A DNA stretch of 64,000 nt from Magnetococcales bacterium (GTDB lineage: Bacteria; Pseudomonadota; Magnetococcia; Magnetococcales; Magnetaquicoccaceae). Below are positions 51,332-60,874 of the stretch, one piece after another. The translations under genes and the position numbers were made by a program. The DNA is taken from assembly GCA_015231755.1 (NCBI GenBank), contig JADGAZ010000023.1, forward strand, positions 1 through 64,000, read 5' to 3'. The notes beneath the pieces are model-generated. The model worked only from the letters and a program-made list of their open reading frames with translations. It made no database searches and was not told the DNA's origin. Every line of letters starts with the position of its first letter. Position 1 is the first letter of the stretch.

Positions 51332-52093
51332 TCAGGCCACCAACTGCTCAAGAAATGCGATCCACGACGCCAGACCGGCCCCTGTGGTGGCGCTCAACTC
51401 AAGGATTCGGGCATCGGGTCGCACCTGAAGAATGGCCTCCCGACAACGATCCATCTTCCAGTTCAGATGGGGCACCAGATCGATCTTGGTGATCACCACC
51501 ACCGGGGCTTGATGAAACAAGGATGGATATTTTACCGGCTTGTCCTCCCCCTCGGTGACCGAAAGCAGGGCGATTTTCAGATCTTCCCCCAGATCGAAGG
51601 CCGCCGGACAGACCAGATTGCCGACATTCTCGATGATCAGCAATCGTTCAGGCCCTCCGTCCGGCAGGAGTTCCGGGAGCCGTTGGCCCACCTGTTGGGC
51701 ATCCAGATGGCACGACGTGCGGGTTTCAATCTGGCAGACCCGCGCTCCCTTGCCTTGCAGACGCCTGGCATCGTGATCGGTTTGCACATCGCCCACCAGG
51801 ACGGCACAAGACACCCGATCCCGCAGCAACTCCAGGGTACGCTCCAGCAGCAAGGTCTTGCCCGCGCCAGGGGAGGAGATCAGGTTGATGGCCCGAATGC
51901 TTCGTGCCGCCAGCCATTGACGGTTTTGTTCGGCCAGGGCGGCATTTTTGGCCATCACCTTGGTTTCAAGCAGGATGGTCCTCTCATGGGTGTGATCATG
52001 GTGGTGATCGTGGGTGTGATCGTGGTGACCCCCCCGTGCGGAGTGATGGGTGTGGGAATGGTGTTCCATGCTGCAACCACAATCCTGGCACAT
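51332..52093 (-). CDS. hypB: Hydrogenase nickel-insertion GTPase HypB
   Basis: The 253-residue product has the N-terminal nickel motif 'MCQDCGC', a His-rich stretch (~residues 11-38) for nickel storage and the GTPase motifs 'ISSPGAGKTLLLE', 'VGDVQTDHDA', 'IENVGNLVCPAAFDLGE' and 'ITKIDLVP'. It delivers nickel with HypA into the large subunit. The HypA gene ends two bases upstream. Confidence 0.97.
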   Translation of the reverse strand: MCQDCGCSMEHHSHTHHSARGGHHDHTHDHHHDHTHERTILLETKVMAKNAALAEQNRQWLAARSIRAINLISSPGAGKTLLLERTLELLRDRVSCAVLVGDVQTDHDARRLQGKGARVCQIETRTSCHLDAQQVGQRLPELLPDGGPERLLIIENVGNLVCPAAFDLGEDLKIALLSVTEGEDKPVKYPSLFHQAPVVVITKIDLVPHLNWKMDRCREAILQVRPDARILELSATTGAGLASWIAFLEQLVA

Positions 52094-52095
52094 CT

Positions 52096-52440
52096 TTAGC
52101 GCACCTCCAAGGAATGCAGAATCAGATCATGACCCGCGATGATCTCCACATGGCCGGAACCGCAGGCCACACACTGGATCCAATGGCTCTCTTCGGGTTG
52201 CGATTCGGTATCGCACGTCCGACAACGGAGTCGCACCGGCACCGGTTCGATCTGCAAGCTGGCTCCTTGAATCGGGGTGCCCTCGATGGCCAGGGGAAAA
52301 CAGAAGGCCAGGGCATCGGCTTCCACGCCACTCAAGGCACCGACCGACACGGTGACCGAAATCAGTTCCTGGGCCTTTTCTTCCAGCATGAATTCCCGGA
52401 TTTGTTCCACCAGGGCCATGGCGATATTGAGTTCGTGCAT
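52096..52440 (-). CDS. hypA: Hydrogenase nickel-incorporation protein HypA
   Basis: The 114-residue product starts 'MHELNIAMALVEQI', with the nickel-binding His2, and has a zinc site of two C-x2-C pairs ('CRTCD' and 'CVACG'). ATG 52440 overlaps the HypE stop codon (TGATG). The frame is open further upstream but the family start is clear. Confidence 0.96.
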   Translation of the reverse strand: MHELNIAMALVEQIREFMLEEKAQELISVTVSVGALSGVEADALAFCFPLAIEGTPIQGASLQIEPVPVRLRCRTCDTESQPEESHWIQCVACGSGHVEIIAGHDLILHSLEVR

Positions 52441-53450
52441 CAGCAGATCCTGGGCAGCAGTTCGCCGCTGGGCACATCCACTACCCGCAGGCCACCGATG
52501 GCGCTTTCCAGAATCACCCGACCGGCTTGATTCGGCGTGACCACACCGATTGCTTGGGCTTTTTGTCCTTCCGGCACGGTACGCCACACAGCAAGAATTG
52601 ATTCCGCCACTTCCGCCGCGCAAATCATCACCAGACACCCTTCCGAGGCCACATGCAGCAGATCCAATCCCATCATTTCCGCCAGGGCCGCCGTGCCCGG
52701 CGAAAAGGGCAGCTCACGGGCGCGGATCAGGATACCAAAATCCCTGCCGGTCGTCATTTCATTCAGGACGGTTGCCAATCCGCCCCGGGTCGGATCGCGC
52801 ATGAAGCGGATTCCCGCAGCCAGGGAGCTTACCCCTTCCACCAGTCGATGCACCGGACGGGAATCACTGACGGGCGCATGGAAACCCTGAATGCCTTCCC
52901 GCGCGGCCAGGATCGCCGCACCATGATCCCCGAGTGGACCGCTCACCAGAACGCGATCCCCTGGCCGGATCCGATCCAGTCCCAGATCGAAGCCGGGCAA
53001 AGCCTCGCCAATGCCGGAGCTGGTGATATAAAGTCCGTCGCATTGGCCGCGTCGCACCACCTTGGTATCCCCCGTGGCCACGATCACGCCGCAATCGTGT
53101 GCCGCCCGTTGAATCGAATCCAACACCCGGCGCAACAGGGATAACGACAAGCCTTCTTCCAGAATCAACCCCAGGGAGAGCCAGCGTGGACGGGCACCGC
53201 TCACCGCCAGGTCATTGACCGTACCATGCACAGCCAGATCCCCGATGTTGCCACCCGGGAATTCCAGCGGCTGGACCACGAATCCATCGGTGGTGAAACG
53301 GATCCGGGTGGAGTCCAGTTCCAGTGCGGCGGCGTCGGGCAGCGAAGCCAGTGGGCCGGAACCGAAACGGGGGAGTATTTCATCGGTGATCAACGCGTGA
53401 GAAAGTCGCCCTCCGCCCCCATGGGCGAGCAGGATCTGATCGTGGTTCAT
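52440..53450 (-). CDS. hypE: Hydrogenase maturation protein HypE
   Basis: The 336-residue product is PurM-like, with 'LLAHGGGGRLSHALI', 'FTTDGFVVQPLEFPGGNIG', 'VATGDTKVV' and 'MRDPTRGGLATVLNEM'. It ends 'ELLPRIC', whose terminal Cys takes the carbamoyl group and is dehydrated to thiocyanate for the Fe(CN)2CO cofactor. ATG 53450 overlaps the hypD stop codon (ATGA). Confidence 0.97.
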   Translation of the reverse strand: MNHDQILLAHGGGGRLSHALITDEILPRFGSGPLASLPDAAALELDSTRIRFTTDGFVVQPLEFPGGNIGDLAVHGTVNDLAVSGARPRWLSLGLILEEGLSLSLLRRVLDSIQRAAHDCGVIVATGDTKVVRRGQCDGLYITSSGIGEALPGFDLGLDRIRPGDRVLVSGPLGDHGAAILAAREGIQGFHAPVSDSRPVHRLVEGVSSLAAGIRFMRDPTRGGLATVLNEMTTGRDFGILIRARELPFSPGTAALAEMMGLDLLHVASEGCLVMICAAEVAESILAVWRTVPEGQKAQAIGVVTPNQAGRVILESAIGGLRVVDVPSGELLPRIC

Positions 53451-54559
53451 CGTGTGACTCCGCCGGAAGCAAAACGATATTCCGCCCCACAGCTCCCCTC
53501 GGAGCTGACCATGCAGGGACCGAGGGGGTGTTCCGGATGGCAGGCCACTCCGAACAGGGAACAGTGAACGGGACGGATTTTGCCCTTCAGAACCTCGCCG
53601 CACAGGCAATGGGGATTGAGGCGACCGGGTTGCACGGTGAGTCCATGGCGCGACTCCGCATCGAATCGGGCGAACTCCGGGCGCAACACCAATCCGCTGG
53701 CCGGGATCACGCCGAGCCCCCGCCAGGAGACATCGGCGGGCATCAGATAGTGATCCACGAGCCGTTGCGCGATGCGATTGCCCTCCGGACGGACCACCCG
53801 GCTGTATTGATTGTCCACCGTGGCGTGTCCGGCGATCTTCTGACGCAGCAATCCCTCCACCCCATGGAGGATATCCAGTGGCTCGAATCCGGCCACAACG
53901 CACGCCACCCCATGGGTATCGGCAAAGGGTCGATAGGCATGGGCCCCGATCACGGCGCTGACATGGGCCGGACAGAGAAAACCATCGATTTTCAGTTCCG
54001 GATCGGCGATCAGCGCGGCCAGCACCGGCGGCACCAACTTGAACGCCGTCAGCAGTGTCAGGTTGGGAATGGCGGCGCGTCGGGCCGTATCCAGCATGGC
54101 CAGCACCGGGGCCATCGTGGTTTCAAAGCCGATGGCCAGAAAAACGATCTCCCGATCCGGATGGGCACGGGCCAGTTCCAGGGCGGTCACCGGGGAGTAA
54201 CAGCTTTCGATCCATCCCCCTGCGGCCCGGCTTTTGGCCAGGGTGGAGCGGGAGCCGGGCACCCGCATCATGTCGCCGAAGGTGACGATGATCTTGCCTT
54301 GCATGGCCAGTTCGATGGCGGCATCGATATAGCCCGGATCGGTCACGCACACCGGGCAGCCCGGTCCACTGACCAGGGTTACCGAAGGCGGCAGAAAATC
54401 CCGAATCGCAAAGCGGGCAATGGCCATGGTATGGCTGCCGCACACCTCCATGAAACAGGCGCGGCCCCCTTGATCCGCCCATTCCTGACCCAGTTGCGCC
54501 AGAGTGACCCGATAACGGGCCGCGGCATCCTGGTTGCGGAATCCATCGATATAGTTCAT
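53447..54559 (-). CDS. hypD: Hydrogenase maturation protein HypD
   Basis: The 370-residue product has the conserved 'FMEVCGSHTMAI', 'VSGPGCPVCVT', 'TFGDMMRVPGS', 'FLAIGFETTMAP', 'GFLCPAHVSAVIG' and the C-terminal [4Fe-4S] Cys, with 'CLCGEVLKGK' and 'CMVSSEGSCGAEY'. With HypC it forms the scaffold on which the iron-cyanide-CO unit is made. Its start overlaps the hypC stop codon by four bases. Confidence 0.97.
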   Translation of the reverse strand: MNYIDGFRNQDAAARYRVTLAQLGQEWADQGGRACFMEVCGSHTMAIARFAIRDFLPPSVTLVSGPGCPVCVTDPGYIDAAIELAMQGKIIVTFGDMMRVPGSRSTLAKSRAAGGWIESCYSPVTALELARAHPDREIVFLAIGFETTMAPVLAMLDTARRAAIPNLTLLTAFKLVPPVLAALIADPELKIDGFLCPAHVSAVIGAHAYRPFADTHGVACVVAGFEPLDILHGVEGLLRQKIAGHATVDNQYSRVVRPEGNRIAQRLVDHYLMPADVSWRGLGVIPASGLVLRPEFARFDAESRHGLTVQPGRLNPHCLCGEVLKGKIRPVHCSLFGVACHPEHPLGPCMVSSEGSCGAEYRFASGGVTR

Positions 54560-54840
54560 CTGCGCGTCTCCGGGCGGAGCGGAGCGGCCACCAACAAGAC
54601 TTCCTGCCCGGTCTCCTGGCGATGTATCGCGGCCAACGTGCGAAACAGAGCCAGGCGGGCTTCGGCTTCGGCGCAGTCGAGCCGTTCGATGGCATAGCCG
54701 GCATGGATCAGCAGATATTCGCCAATTTTCGGCTCTTCGATCAGCATCAATCCGATGGTGTGTTGAATGCCATCCAGTTCCACGGTGCCGGTTTCATCCG
54801 CACCCATGGCCACCAGTTGCATGGGAACCGCTAGACACAT
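54556..54840 (-). CDS. hypC: Hydrogenase assembly chaperone HypC
   Basis: The 94-residue product begins 'MCLAVPMQLVAMG', with the essential Cys2, and has 'GEYLLIHAGYAIERLD', the HypC/HupF signature. It binds HypD and the large subunit precursor. Its start overlaps the end of the protease-HypF fusion gene by ten bases. Confidence 0.96.
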   Translation of the reverse strand: MCLAVPMQLVAMGADETGTVELDGIQHTIGLMLIEEPKIGEYLLIHAGYAIERLDCAEAEARLALFRTLAAIHRQETGQEVLLVAAPLRPETRR

Positions 54841-56456
54841 GACCGATCCCTCTCTCCGGCGATCCAGAGTTGTCCGACCGCAAGGCTTTCATCCCCGGTC
54901 GTGAGGCGTTGATGGTGAAAGATCTTCACTGCCGATGCGTGCAACCGGGCCCGCAGCAAATCCTTGAGCAGACGGTTCATGAAGACGCCACCACTCAGGA
55001 CCAGGTGACGCACACCGGTATTCCGGGTGCCCTGTTCGACCAGAGCCGCCAGAGCCTCGGCCACGGCTTGATGAAATCCATAAGCCCAGGCGGGTCGATC
55101 TTCCTCGGGCACCGGTTCCACCGGGAGCGCGGCGAACAAGGGTGACCAATCCACCCAAACCATGCCCGATTCTTCCCGGAGCGCAAAGGGGAGATGCCGA
55201 TCACACGGTTTTTCTGGCCATCGATGCGCCATGGCTTCCAGTCCCATGGCCGGTTCCCCTTCGTGGGCAATGACCCGGGGGGCGGATCCGAGCCAAGCGG
55301 CAAAGGCATCGAACAGCCGTCCGGCGGCGTGGCTCATGGGGGCGTTCACCCCGAGGCGACATTGTTGGCGCCAAAGGTCGATCTCGACCGCCGACAAACC
55401 GAGCCGCGTCTGCCAAGCCGCATCGATGGTCACGCCGGCGGCCAGCAGACGGGCGAGCAGTTGCCGGACCGGCTGGCGCACCGCCGCATCCCCGCCCGGC
55501 AGGGGAACCGGCGCGAAAGTTCCCAGGCGGCTCCAGCCGCCGGGGTGCAGATGGAGCAGTTCCGCCCCCCACAGGGAGCCATCCAGTCCATGCCCCATGC
55601 CGTCGCAGGTCAAGGCCAAGGCTGCGTGCAGGCCATGTTCCGCCATGCAGGCCCCGGCGTGGGCCTGATGATGCTGGACCGTCACCAACTCCAGGGAGCG
55701 TTCCCGGGCCAGCCGACCTCCCAGCACCGTCGGGTAAAGGTCGGGATGCCGATCCACCACCAACGCTTCTGGCGGATGGGACGGATGGTCCAACAGGGCC
55801 AGGACCGCCTGTTCCATGGCGTTGCGCGCCATCGGATCGGTCAGGTCGCCACAGGGTCGGAACAGGGTGATCGACTCTCCATGTCCAAACGCCAGGGCAT
55901 TTTTGCTTTCGATCCCCAAGGCCAACATCGGACGCGCAAAGCGTCCAGGTGCTGGAATCACCGCCTGGATTTCAGGCAGCGCCGCAGGCCACTCCGCAAG
56001 CAGACACCCCACGACCGTTTGCAATCCGGTCAGGAGTTCCGGCACGCGCTGCGTCATTTCGGGGGTCAGGCCCGGTTGCGGCGACAGATCGAACGGTTGG
56101 ACGCCGAACACCCCCACAGGATGATCAAAACCCAATCCGCAAGCGATTTCCAGGGCTTCGGCCACACCGAATCCGTGGGTGGAAAGGGAATCGACGGTTG
56201 TTTTCAACAGGCCATCCCGGGGCCGGAAGTGACGCCAGATCCCCCCTTCCAGACCCATGTTCGCACAATCGACGATCAGCACCGGTTCGGTCAGGGTGAG
56301 CAGATCGTAAGCCAGGGTCAAGGCGTCGGCATCCTCCCACAACACGGGCGTGAGGCCGGGGGATGCCGTGGATTGGGCCAGGGCTTCCACCAGCCGCAGA
56401 CCGATCCCGTCATCCCGCGCCCCACGACTGCCGACGCCGATCACCGTCAACCTCAC
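54831..56456 (-). CDS. Fusion of hydrogenase maturation protease and C-terminal HypF (Kae1-like) domain
   Basis: The product of about 541 residues joins two functions. Residues 1-155 are a HycI/HoxW-type maturation peptidase with the nickel-sensing residues D16 ('ARDDGIG'), D63 ('LIVDCANMG') and H94 ('STHGFGVAEAL'). Residues ~165-541 match the Kae1-like carbamoyltransferase part of HypF: H262/H263/H266 ('QHHQAHAGACMAEHGL'), 'TCDGMGHGLDGSLWGAEL', 'PLPGGDAAVRQP' and 'LSGGVFMNRLL'. The acylphosphatase, zinc-finger and YrdC domains of normal HypF (~750 residues) are absent. GTG 56456 has CAGGAG seven bases upstream and overlaps no other gene. Cyanide-ligand synthesis would need those steps supplied from elsewhere. 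Confidence 0.88.
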   Translation of the reverse strand: MRLTVIGVGSRGARDDGIGLRLVEALAQSTASPGLTPVLWEDADALTLAYDLLTLTEPVLIVDCANMGLEGGIWRHFRPRDGLLKTTVDSLSTHGFGVAEALEIACGLGFDHPVGVFGVQPFDLSPQPGLTPEMTQRVPELLTGLQTVVGCLLAEWPAALPEIQAVIPAPGRFARPMLALGIESKNALAFGHGESITLFRPCGDLTDPMARNAMEQAVLALLDHPSHPPEALVVDRHPDLYPTVLGGRLARERSLELVTVQHHQAHAGACMAEHGLHAALALTCDGMGHGLDGSLWGAELLHLHPGGWSRLGTFAPVPLPGGDAAVRQPVRQLLARLLAAGVTIDAAWQTRLGLSAVEIDLWRQQCRLGVNAPMSHAAGRLFDAFAAWLGSAPRVIAHEGEPAMGLEAMAHRWPEKPCDRHLPFALREESGMVWVDWSPLFAALPVEPVPEEDRPAWAYGFHQAVAEALAALVEQGTRNTGVRHLVLSGGVFMNRLLKDLLRARLHASAVKIFHHQRLTTGDESLAVGQLWIAGERDRSCV

Positions 56457-56475: not shown

Positions 56476-57783
56476 TCAATCGACAAACTCGACGTTGAGC
56501 ATATGCACGGAACAGGAGATGCAGGGATCATAGGCCCGCAACAGCATTTCCATGTGCAAGGTCAACGTCTCCTGGGACATCTCCGGCAGCATGAGCGGCA
56601 CGAAAGCCTTCATGTCCTGCTCGATGTTGTTGACGTTTTGACTGGTGGGAATGATGGCATTGGCATCGCAACAGCGCCCGGCCTCGTCGAAGGCGTATTC
56701 GTGGAACAAAATGCCGCGTGGCACCTCGACCGCCCCGAATCCGCGACCCGCTTTCGGGGTATGACCGATGTCTTCTTCCCGCAAGCCGCCGTTGAGCACG
56801 GTCTCCATCATGGCCAGACTGTTGTAGGCGCAGTGGACGATCTCCACCACCTGGGCGACGTTGTTCATGTAGGGATTGTAACAGGGCGTTTTCAGGCCCA
56901 GAGTCTCGGCGACGCTTTTGGCTTCGGGATGCAACTGGTCGAAGTTGTTGTTGACCCGGGCCAAGGCCCCGACCGCATAGGCATCCCGATGCCAGCGGGA
57001 CCATTTGGTGGTGGAGTGGGCCACGGTGAATTCGTTGGTCACCGAACGATAGTCACGCACCGGCACGCCGCTTTGGGTGTCGGAACTGAATACATCGCCT
57101 TCGTACAGGGCATATTCGTCGGGATGCTTGAGGGAGACGAATTCGGTTTCCCGTTCGTAGCCGGGGATTTTCAGGGTCTTGACGATTCCGACCGTCTCCA
57201 GCAGATCCGGCACCGCAGCCACCAAACGATTGCGGACCTGTTCGAGCCGCTCCAGATCCGGAAGCCTGCGCCATCCTTTCAAGGTGTTGCTCATGGGATG
57301 AATGGTGCGTCCTCCCATCACCTCGGTATAGTCGTTGGCCAGTTTTTTCAGTCGCAAGGCCCGTTTCACCACCTCGGGATGGGTCTTGATCAGCGGAATG
57401 ACACTGGGCGCGCCAACGAAATCCGGCACCGCGAGAAAATAGACATGCAGCACATGGCTTTGCAGAAACTGGGATTCGTTGAGCATTTTTCTCAACAAGA
57501 CCGTCTGGGGGGAAACCGCAATGCCCTGGGCATCCTCCACCGCCTTGGTGGCCGAAAGTTGATGGCCCACGCAGCAAATGCCGCAGATGCGACCCACCAC
57601 CCAGGGGATTTCGTGGGGCGTCATGCCGCGGGTGAAGCTTTCAAAAAATCGGTTGGCCTCGACGATGCACAGTTTCACATCCTCCACCACCCCGTCGCGG
57701 GTATTGATGCGGATGTTGCCATGTCCCTCGACGCGGGTGACGTGATGCACATCGATCGTGTAGGTTTTGGCATTATTTGTCAT
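56476..57783 (-). CDS. hyhL: Group 3b [NiFe] hydrogenase large subunit
   Basis: The 435-residue product has the L1 motif 'GRICGICCVGHQLSA' and the L2 motif 'DPCISCSVH', which ligate the Ni-Fe centre. An eight-residue tail after the His would be cut by the maturation protease. The L1 motif carries an extra Cys directly after the C-x2-C. 'HHVTRVEGHGNI' and overall length fit soluble NAD(P)-linked group 3 enzymes. It overlaps the small-subunit gene upstream by 11 bases and is followed 19 bases later by the protease-HypF fusion. Confidence 0.96.
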   Translation of the reverse strand: MTNNAKTYTIDVHHVTRVEGHGNIRINTRDGVVEDVKLCIVEANRFFESFTRGMTPHEIPWVVGRICGICCVGHQLSATKAVEDAQGIAVSPQTVLLRKMLNESQFLQSHVLHVYFLAVPDFVGAPSVIPLIKTHPEVVKRALRLKKLANDYTEVMGGRTIHPMSNTLKGWRRLPDLERLEQVRNRLVAAVPDLLETVGIVKTLKIPGYERETEFVSLKHPDEYALYEGDVFSSDTQSGVPVRDYRSVTNEFTVAHSTTKWSRWHRDAYAVGALARVNNNFDQLHPEAKSVAETLGLKTPCYNPYMNNVAQVVEIVHCAYNSLAMMETVLNGGLREEDIGHTPKAGRGFGAVEVPRGILFHEYAFDEAGRCCDANAIIPTSQNVNNIEQDMKAFVPLMLPEMSQETLTLHMEMLLRAYDPCISCSVHMLNVEFVD

Positions 57784-58567
57784 GTCCGGTTCTCCCGACC
57801 CGACCGAGGGATTCCGCGCTGCAAAACAGGCGGTAACGATTGGTGATCTGGGGTTCGGAAAGCCCCTTGCTCTTCAGCAGACCATGATGGGCCGTCAGAT
57901 TGGCATGGGGCAGCACGCCCCGGCAGCCATCGCACCGGTAACCGTTGGTGATACAGATGGCCTTGCAGCCCCCACGGGTGATTTGCCCCATGCAGGTTTC
58001 GCCCTGATCGTAGACGCATTCGTTTTCGAGCATCTTGCATTCGACGCAGACCGCCTGGGTCGAAAAACGGGGGATGGCTCCGGTGACCAGCGATTTGACC
58101 AGATGCACGAACTCTTCGGGCACCAAAGGACAGCCCCGCAACTCGAAATCCACCGGCACGATCTCATGTACCGCCCGTACCCGCGTATGGGCCCAGAGGG
58201 GCCAGAACTCCGGATCGGTCTGTACCCGGTTGCGATCCTCGACCCCATAGACCCGCTGGAAATTTTCCGCAGGCGCGATGAAGTTGGAACGGGCCTGGAC
58301 ATTGCCGATACAGGCGCACGCCCCCATGGCCACCAGATAGGTGCTGCGGGCACGGATGTCTCTCAGCCGTTCGGCGTCTTGTTCCCGGTTGATGCTCCCT
58401 TCGATGAAGGCGACATCGAAACGCGGCGCGGTTTCCGACATCGCCTCGCGGAATTCGACGATATCCACCAGCCCCAGAATGTCCAACAGGACATCTTCGC
58501 AGTTGAGAACCGCGAGTTGACACCCTTCGCAGCTGGCGAAGTCAAAGAAGGCCACTTTTGGTTTCAT
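57773..58567 (-). CDS. hyhS: [NiFe] hydrogenase small (delta) subunit
   Basis: The 264-residue product has proximal-cluster Cys in 'FASCEGCQLAVLN', 'MGACACIGNV' and 'LRGCPLVPEE'. Further Cys-rich motifs bind medial and distal clusters ('CVECKMLENECV', 'CMGQITRGGCKAIC', 'YRCDGCRG'). There is no Tat signal, so the enzyme is cytoplasmic. ATG 58567 overlaps the stop codon of the flavin subunit gene (ATGA). Confidence 0.95.
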   Translation of the reverse strand: MKPKVAFFDFASCEGCQLAVLNCEDVLLDILGLVDIVEFREAMSETAPRFDVAFIEGSINREQDAERLRDIRARSTYLVAMGACACIGNVQARSNFIAPAENFQRVYGVEDRNRVQTDPEFWPLWAHTRVRAVHEIVPVDFELRGCPLVPEEFVHLVKSLVTGAIPRFSTQAVCVECKMLENECVYDQGETCMGQITRGGCKAICITNGYRCDGCRGVLPHANLTAHHGLLKSKGLSEPQITNRYRLFCSAESLGRVGRTGHDK

Positions 58568-59430
58568 TGCAACGCCTCCGGAAGATGCGCGATCTGGTCG
58601 AACCGGAACACCGGTCCTTCCTGGCAGCAATAGACATGGTTGATTTGGCAATGGCCACATTTGCCCACGCCACATTTCATGCGTCTTTCCAGGTCCACGA
58701 AAATCCGGGAGTGGGGCAGTCCGCGTGCGGCCAGTTCCAGGAGGACGAATTTGTACATCACGGGCGGTCCGCACAGGGCCACGACCGTATTGTCCGGATC
58801 GATGGGCAGGGAGGGAAGGGGCGCGGTGACCAGTCCGACTTGGCCATCCCAGGGCAGATTCTGGGTGCGGTCCACCAGACGGATCACCCGGACCTTGCCG
58901 GTCTCTTGTCCGAGTCGTTCCCAGGCGCGCATTTCTTCGCGATACAGTTCCTCGGCGGGGGTGCGGCAGCCGCTGATGATGGTGAGAGCGGCAAAGCGGT
59001 CCAGTTGCGCCAGAATCGGCTGGATCAGGGAGCGCATCGGCACCAGTCCCAAACCGCCGACCACACACAGGACTTGTTTGCCGTAAAAATCCTCCAGATC
59101 GAACCCGGAACCGAATGGACCCCGTATCCCTACCTGTTGACCCGGTTTGAGGCCATGCAGCACCTGGGTCAGGCTGCCCGCATTGCGGATCACCATTTCC
59201 AGAATGGTATCCGTGCGCGGGCCGCAGGAGATGGAGATCGGCGCCTCCCCCACCCCCAGCAAAGAGAGCATGACAAATTGGCCGGGGCGGTGTCCCAGGG
59301 GTTCTGGGAGTTCGACCTTGAAATATTTTTCCCGGGAGGTCAGGGGGGTCACTTCCAGAATGCGGGCCATGCGCGGCAGATAGAGCGCCGGATCGATGGT
59401 CGGGTCGGATGCGTAGGGGGTCGCACTCAT
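58564..59430 (-). CDS. hyhG: Hydrogenase FAD/NAD(P)-binding (gamma) subunit
   Basis: The 288-residue product is a ferredoxin-NADP reductase-like subunit: 'GHRPGQFVMLSLLGVGEAPI' for FAD, 'VVGGLGLVPMRSLI' and 'VALCGPPVMYKF' for the nicotinamide side. A C-terminal [2Fe-2S] motif 'CGVGKCGHCQ' then 'YCCQEGPVF' follows. It links hydrogen oxidation to NAD(P) reduction. ATG 59430 overlaps the stop codon of hyhB. Confidence 0.95.
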   Translation of the reverse strand: MSATPYASDPTIDPALYLPRMARILEVTPLTSREKYFKVELPEPLGHRPGQFVMLSLLGVGEAPISISCGPRTDTILEMVIRNAGSLTQVLHGLKPGQQVGIRGPFGSGFDLEDFYGKQVLCVVGGLGLVPMRSLIQPILAQLDRFAALTIISGCRTPAEELYREEMRAWERLGQETGKVRVIRLVDRTQNLPWDGQVGLVTAPLPSLPIDPDNTVVALCGPPVMYKFVLLELAARGLPHSRIFVDLERRMKCGVGKCGHCQINHVYCCQEGPVFRFDQIAHLPEALQ

Positions 59431-60479
59431 GAGTTCGCCTCCGCGTGATCGATCAAATCGTTGACAATATCGAAAATGTCGATACCGGTCGTGCATTGGC
59501 GACCGCATCGACCACAGCCGGTACAGAAACTGCCTTCGGCAAACCGTTCGGTCAGATATTCAAACTTGCGTTTGACCCGGTGACGCTGACGGGCCGCCGG
59601 ATTGGAACGGAAATTGTGTCCACCGGCCACCTCGGCGAACCGGGGCAGCATGCAACCATCCCAGGTGCGGGTGCGCTGGCCGGCGTTGATGTCGGTGAGG
59701 TCGAAGTCGTCATGGACATCGAAGCAGTAGCAGGTGGGACAGACCAGATTGCAACTGCCGCAGGAAAAACAGGCCTCCACATGCTTTTCCCACACCGGAG
59801 CGTGCCATTGATTGGCGATGAGGGTGGGAATGCGGGCCAGATCGGCATGAAACTGCCGTCCGAACGGTTTGGCGCGTTGGGCTTCGGCACGGGCTTTCAC
59901 CGAGGCGACCTCCTGGCACACCGGGAAATCCATCCCTTGGATCAATGTTTCTCCTGCGGGGGTTTGGACTTCGATCAGGATGTGATCGTCGATGGAGGTC
60001 AGAAAGATATCGGCATTTTCCCGCCAACCCAGGGATCCCACCGCGTCGCAAAAGCAGGCTGCGTCACAGGGTTGCAGGCAGTCATGGGCCATGAGGGTGC
60101 TGTGGGTGCGACGGGTCAGATAGTGGGGATCTCCATGACCTTCCCGGTTGACCTGGTCCATCAGGTGGATCCCCTTGAGATCACACGGACGGACACCGGC
60201 CAGAATCCGGGGGGACCGGTCCAGGATGGGCACCAACTCGGGTGCTTCGTCCCCCCGTTTGCGATAGCGGAACAAGGGTTCTTCCGCCGGGGTCAGTTTT
60301 TTTCCGGGTGGGGAGAGCGTCGGGTGGTAGCGATCGAATTGGATTTCCGTGGTCTCCCCCACCGGTTTGAAGCGAAATCCGGATTGACCGGCACGCTGCG
60401 GGAAATAGACGGTATGGCTTCGTGCCAGATGCCGGATCCAATGCGCCACGGCATCTTTATCGATGAAAAACGCACGCAT
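59427..60479 (-). CDS. hyhB: Hydrogenase Fe-S (beta) subunit, sulfhydrogenase type
   Basis: The 350-residue product has two C-terminal ferredoxin motifs, 'CFSCGSCNLVCPTCYC' and 'CTGCGRCGRQCTTGID', and the family N-terminal region with 'ILAGVRPCDLKGIHLMD' and 'CLQPCDAACFCDAVG'. This is the beta subunit of group 3b (Hyh/sulfhydrogenase) enzymes, and the gene order beta-gamma-small-large is that of hyhBGSL. ATG 60479 is seven bases after AGGAGG; ATG 60482 is four. It is first gene of the hydrogenase operon. Confidence 0.93.
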   Translation of the reverse strand: MRAFFIDKDAVAHWIRHLARSHTVYFPQRAGQSGFRFKPVGETTEIQFDRYHPTLSPPGKKLTPAEEPLFRYRKRGDEAPELVPILDRSPRILAGVRPCDLKGIHLMDQVNREGHGDPHYLTRRTHSTLMAHDCLQPCDAACFCDAVGSLGWRENADIFLTSIDDHILIEVQTPAGETLIQGMDFPVCQEVASVKARAEAQRAKPFGRQFHADLARIPTLIANQWHAPVWEKHVEACFSCGSCNLVCPTCYCFDVHDDFDLTDINAGQRTRTWDGCMLPRFAEVAGGHNFRSNPAARQRHRVKRKFEYLTERFAEGSFCTGCGRCGRQCTTGIDIFDIVNDLIDHAEANS

Positions 60480-60482
60480 CAT

Positions 60483-60874
60483 GATACCTCCTGATTCGTT
60501 GCTGACCATGCAGCCTGGAGCGCACCGCATGAATGGTGATGCAACCATGGAAAGAAGTTAAAATTCTAAGAATTCCGTGAAACCCGATCATAATCCATCA
60601 ATACAAACACGAAGTGATTTCTTGAAGTGTCCAGGTTTTAATGGAACCGAAATTATGCCAGTTTAGCATAGGTGGTGTGGTGACGGATAATGCTGAATAA
60701 TCATTTTATAATCTGTTTTTGTGATATGCCCATGCGTGTTTCAGGTTTCAGGTCTTAACCCGTGTCCCTGACCATACGCGCGGCACGTTTGGACCGGGAG
60801 GCGTCACTGGAGGCGGGAAAAGAGCGTTGGTAGCGACTGGTTGCAAACGGCATGACAACGCTCACCACGTCTTT
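60483..60874. other. Promoter region of the hydrogenase operon, no gene seen
   Basis: 392 AT-richer bases lie between hyhB and the hybrid kinase gene, both minus strand. The hyhB ribosome binding site AGGAGG is at its left edge. Short inverted repeats are visible (TATGC at 60654-60658 with GCATA at 60666-60670; AATTC-TAA-GAATT near 60571). No reliable sigma-70, sigma-54 or FNR-type site could be fixed by eye. Confidence 0.45.

Follow-up and report, generated by a model that had tools for sequence, protein, structure and literature searches.

A gene on the minus strand of the window analysed here (64,000 nucleotides of a Magnetococcales bacterium, part of a 3.84 Mb draft genome that is 97.8% complete) joins, in one reading frame, a hydrogenase maturation endopeptidase of the M52 family to a HypF reduced to its Kae1-like carbamoyltransferase half. 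Comparison of sequences makes it probable that two operon neighbours have fused into a bifunctional maturation protein of a group 3b-type operon, with carbamoyl-adenylate made elsewhere. In the known pathway HypF, an enzyme of four domains, starts the synthesis of the cyanide ligands and keeps labile carbamoyl intermediates shielded inside a single protein, and the M52 protease trims the hydrogenase late in assembly. The half of HypF responsible for this shielding has been lost here, as it has in other, independently truncated HypF lineages, and neither a second HypF nor a YrdC paralogue in its place was found. Such a truncated enzyme offers a natural minimal form in which the source of the cyanide precursor can be studied.

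The sequence-only reading had described a reading frame opening at a GTG with a good ribosome binding site, and this description holds, since the 541 codons form one open frame (Table 1). The intact protease that it recognized in the first part of the protein is likewise supported: the general model of hydrogenase maturation proteases (TIGR00072) matches residues 5-143 with 70.6 bits, above its cut-off of 47.45, and the structure matched is that of E. coli HybD (PDB 1cfz), with whose metal-site residues (E16, D62 and H93) the residues D16, D63 and H94 align. These three are kept in all 12 of the compared M52 sequences of this operon type. The protein shares sequence family and metal-site residues with M52 proteases such as HybD and FrxA, the processing enzyme of an NADP-dependent hydrogenase in Pyrococcus furiosus (PMC2865534). 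It differs from them in its C-terminal carbamoyltransferase half and, relative to HybD, in position 16, which is Asp here and Glu there. The label "HycI-type" survives only in part: it agrees with the name of the Pfam family (HycI, PF01750; 33.7 bits, cut-off 23), but the HycI equivalog model (TIGR00142) scores 18.1 bits against a cut-off of 119.1, so the M52 subfamily is not HycI proper.

Table 1. Genes and domains at the fused locus, with positions in the window
Feature	Positions	Strand	Remarks
M52 protease / HypF Kae1-like fusion gene	54831..56456	(-)	541 aa; GTG start at 56456, AGGAG ribosome binding site 7 bases upstream; stop at 54831
M52 hydrogenase maturation endopeptidase domain	56016..56456	(-)	residues 1-147; D16, D63, H94
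HypF Kae1-like carbamoyltransferase half	54834..55940	(-)	residues 173-541; HHQAH, DGMGHG, GDESLAVGQ motifs
Group 3b-type [NiFe] hydrogenase large (alpha) subunit	56476..57783	(-)	ends DPCISCSVH-MLNVEFVD
Hydrogenase small (delta) subunit	57773..58573	(-)	profile match
Hydrogenase gamma subunit, FAD/NAD(P)-binding	58564..59508	(-)	profile match
Hydrogenase beta subunit (Fe-S)	59427..60548	(-)	profile match
hypC	54556..54840	(-)	start overlaps final 10 bases of fusion gene
hypD	53447..54559	(-)	
hypE	52440..53450	(-)	ends PRIC
hypA	52096..52440	(-)	
hypB	51332..52093	(-)	

In the second part of the protein, HypF_C (PF17788) covers residues 175-273 and HypF_C_2 (PF22521) residues 282-529, both over cut-off, and the structures matched are those of HypF (PDB 3tsp, 4g9i and 3vth). 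As in these canonical enzymes, the Kae1-like half bears the HHxAH, DGxGxG and GD...GQ motifs, which are kept in the fused and truncated HypF copies with the exception of G003 (HQQAH). Unlike them, it is preceded by the protease in place of the acylphosphatase, zinc-finger and YrdC-like domains: domain searches found neither an acylphosphatase nor a YrdC-like domain in the fusion protein, and HypF zinc fingers (PF07503) neither in the protein nor in the whole genome. The alignment to the HypF model (TIGR00143) spans only positions 390 to 739 of 741, and the whole-protein score of 209.7 bits lies below the equivalog cut-off of 466.1. HypF is thus cut down to its Kae1-like half, as had been read from the letters. 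The fusion as predicted by AlphaFold, on the basis of an alignment of three rows, has a mean pLDDT (39.8) too low for interpretation.

The gene lies in the order hydB-hydG-hydS-hydL-fusion-hypC-hypD-hypE-hypA-hypB and begins approximately 20 bases past the end of the large subunit gene. The four hydrogenase subunits resemble the models of the NAD(P)-linked sulfhydrogenases of group 3b (Hyd/Shy alpha, beta, gamma and delta), all below the equivalog cut-offs; the locus departs from group 3b operons in that maturation genes follow directly, the fused protein among them. As with HybD and FrxA, the protease gene is next to that of a large subunit with a short tail. In this case the tail consists of eight residues (MLNVEFVD) after the conserved His of DPCISCSVH, and all the large subunits of this type in the compared set bear one of 7-8 residues. 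It is the likely target of M52 cleavage, and the fused protease domain would cut it off once nickel has been inserted. The C-terminal Cys of HypE is the residue carbamoylated by HypF, and since the HypE of this operon ends in PRIC, as do all the HypE proteins compared, the carbamoyl acceptor is present.

Full-length fusions were found in five other genomes (G036, G028, G043, G045 and G042) among 48 of the class, which brings the carriers to six in total, from two families. The orthologues are 53-80% identical to the protein described here, the closest (80%) being that of G036, a contig of the Magnetococcales MAG L004, and most of them sit inside the arrangement hydBGSL-M52/HypF_C-hypCDE. Between G000 and G036, dN/dS is approximately 0.18 for the M52 part and 0.26 for the HypF_C part; both domains are under purifying selection, and the linker that connects them is the fastest-changing part, variable in length and sequence. 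A sequencing frameshift or an assembly artefact is ruled out by the five orthologous fusions and the low dN/dS, and the claim of a real fusion, encoding one protein, stands: the frame is single and open, and no frameshift was found.

The architecture had been called unusual, and the surveys agree. The HypF_C_2 matches listed for 397 genomes from across the phylum, and for 377 and 389 from two further classes (approximately 1,160 other sampled genomes altogether), include no M52-HypF fusion apart from those of Magnetococcia. A scan for close relatives in 84,980 species yielded, besides the Magnetococcales MAG, only an ordinary HypF of KSB1. Frames of about 600-690 aa in G073, G612, G480 and G984, considered as candidate fusions, turned out to be HypF cut by a contig end, interrupted or shortened in some other way, with remnants of YrdC. 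No M52-HypF fusion was found in the open-access literature, and a domain survey of 600 HypF-cluster proteins, about 3-4% of which have no YrdC or zinc fingers, reports no protease domain among the frequent partners (PMC12727194). The fusion has therefore not turned out to be common or already described, whereas truncated HypF alone is both, and its precedent is HypF1 of Cupriavidus necator.

The relatives appear to preserve the path that led to the fusion, from adjacent separate genes to a shared frame with a single stop and then to one protein. In G025 and G004 the operon reads hydBGSL-M52-hypCDEAB with no HypF gene in it, and a full HypF is encoded elsewhere in the genome. In G003 and G019 the protease and the HypF half are separate neighbouring genes, and in G001 (L062:7690-7710) they share a frame that one TGA interrupts, a new ATG following within a few codons, an arrangement that would be a single stop loss away from fusion. 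A tree of the Kae1-like half unites the fused and truncated proteins of Magnetococcia in a single clade (100/99), next to which stand the full-length HypF proteins of two genomes of the class, G025 and G034. These comparisons suggest that a HypF of the lineage that is still full-length in the class would have lost its N-terminal half, that the shortened gene would then have taken a place between hydL and hypC, adjacent to that of M52, and that loss of the stop separating them would have joined the two parts, because their genes were neighbours. Two genomes have the HypF half without the protease part: G035 branches within the fused group and has neither the 3b hydrogenase genes nor the protease part at its HypF locus, where the HypF half adjoins hypCDEAB and a different hydrogenase accompanied by an M52 of its own, and in G047 the HypF half, on a short contig, has an unrelated gene as its neighbour. 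A single fusion, after which the protease part was lost twice, accounts for this distribution; independent fusions may also lie behind it, and the resolution of the M52 tree is too poor to date the fusion. The locus shows clearly how neighbouring genes of an operon become one, with relatives that still display the steps in between.

The sequence-only reading went further and proposed that the fusion ties an early and a late step to the same large subunit. Such mechanistic coupling would place cyanide synthesis and tail cleavage on one large-subunit assembly line, with a checkpoint or channel, and it would accord with the membership of both domains in one pathway, with the position of the fused gene directly after its large subunit gene at most fused loci and with its conservation in two families. 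The strongest argument against it comes from G028 (98% complete), in which three [NiFe] large subunits share a single, fused HypF, the only one in the genome; G043 and G042 have more than one large-subunit match each. Moreover, in the established pathway the substrate of HypF is HypE, not the large subunit, the linker is conserved in neither length nor sequence, and G035 has kept the HypF half beside a different hydrogenase after dropping the protease. We consider this coupling unlikely, and the proposal is weakened. Under the preferred reading, that of an operon-neighbour fusion, the single protein is predicted to have both activities and would serve the surrounding group 3b-type hydrogenase, and the gain from joining them is probably that the two are produced together, not that they are linked mechanistically.

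Stand-alone truncated HypF is frequent outside the class, according to genome surveys. Truncated proteins form clades in Magnetococcia, in family f18 and around C. necator HypF1, with that of G092 uncertain in its placement. A single shared origin of all of them is rejected by an AU test (p-AU 1.1e-5), and by these trees HypF was shortened on at least three separate occasions in Pseudomonadota. HypF1 of C. necator (WP_011153939, plasmid pHG1) resembles the fusion in consisting of the Kae1-like carbamoyltransferase only, one of three canonical HypF domains, encoded in a hyp operon, and it likely needs carbamoyl-adenylate from elsewhere (PMC9100943). It differs in having no protease and falls in a separate clade, so its truncation is independent. 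A second protein of C. necator, HypF2, is fuller (PMC5350229), and HypF1 was inactive in E. coli under the anaerobic conditions tested (PMC5350229, PMC9100943); the Kae1-like half may therefore not suffice in every host. A link between truncated HypF and HypX was discarded, HypX being present, among the loci compared, only in C. necator and two relatives.

It had been supposed that the missing chemistry would come from another protein, perhaps a YrdC-like enzyme or a second HypF. No second HypF was found to supply it, nor any extra YrdC paralogue. The source genome contains one HypF_C match, no zf-HYPF and only two YrdC-family proteins, one TsaC-like and one YciO-like as judged from their sequences, with no paralogue beyond this pair. 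The genomes are draft MAGs, in which the absence of a gene can mean a missing contig, but zf-HYPF was found in no class member with truncated HypF, including seven genomes at least 95% complete, nor in 16 truncated-HypF genomes of other families, several of which are single contigs. Exactly two YrdC-family proteins were counted in 18 of the 19 truncated-HypF genomes checked, the exception being G169, and ten sister genomes with full HypF have three. These absences bear on whether the HypF half could be a decaying or repurposed relic, with cyanide supplied by a HypF missed in the draft and only the protease mattering, as the draft state of the assembly, the loss of three domains and the inactivity of C. 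necator HypF1 in E. coli might suggest. Against this, the HypF half is under purifying selection, keeps its metal-site motifs and was retained in G035 after the protease was lost, and no zf-HYPF appeared in the surveyed genomes with truncated forms; such decay seems very improbable.

Since the searches revealed neither a second HypF nor an additional YrdC paralogue, carbamoyl-adenylate would have to come from elsewhere, and with the shielding half gone and no YrdC replacement, the source of the cyanide precursor becomes a direct, testable question. The simplest guess is that a housekeeping YrdC-family enzyme, TsaC or YciO, would supply the HypF half; published work states that YciO does not replace TsaC in vivo and describes its function as unresolved (PMC12506659). 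Canonical HypF has a tunnel in which the labile carbamate is protected up to the formation of carbamoyl-adenylate (PMC12134894); a lone Kae1-like half cannot provide such a tunnel, which counts against the explanation preferred here. A more radical option is that the Kae1-like domain may itself be the source, producing or directly accepting the activated carbamoyl group, with carbamoyl phosphate and ATP as one conceivable starting point, and needing no YrdC partner. The repeated, independent loss of the N-terminal half with no YrdC paralogue taking over would fit this option, as would the HypF-related GdmN, in which nucleotides were observed only in the Kae1-like domain, although the same work assigns adenylation to the YrdC-like domain (PMC9633730). 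No assay of an isolated HypF half turned up in the open-access literature, and we regard self-activation as quite unlikely. In more general terms, and with confidence that falls somewhat short of even, it may be proposed that many bacteria make the cyanide ligands of hydrogenase with the Kae1-like half of HypF only, through repeated independent truncation, drawing carbamoyl-adenylate from a common pool supplied by a housekeeping YrdC-family enzyme or from the Kae1-like domain itself, and that Magnetococcia carry this minimal HypF on their hydrogenase protease.

Other loci show further variants. G169 encodes a truncated HypF (L047:7370-8449) with no other hyp genes detected within approximately 8 kb and has a single YrdC-family protein in its genome; its truncated HypF may have another role. 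Four Magnetococcia (G044, G014, G007 and G029) have a [NiFe] large subunit and no clear HypF in a protein search, which may reflect missing contigs or a further HypF variant; the completeness of G044 and G014 is 96-99%. At about 5.0-6.7 kb of L096 (G984) lies a HypF of the alphaproteobacterial side (the class of G169) that has neither acylphosphatase nor zinc fingers. Its N-terminal stretch is HypB-like (MCTVCGCG...) and runs directly into the YrdC-Kae1 half; this frame may be a different type of truncation or an assembly error. Finally, at 1.7-7.5 kb of L052 (G254), a hypCDEAB cluster near that of Magnetococcia is followed by a full-length HypF broken into several frames.
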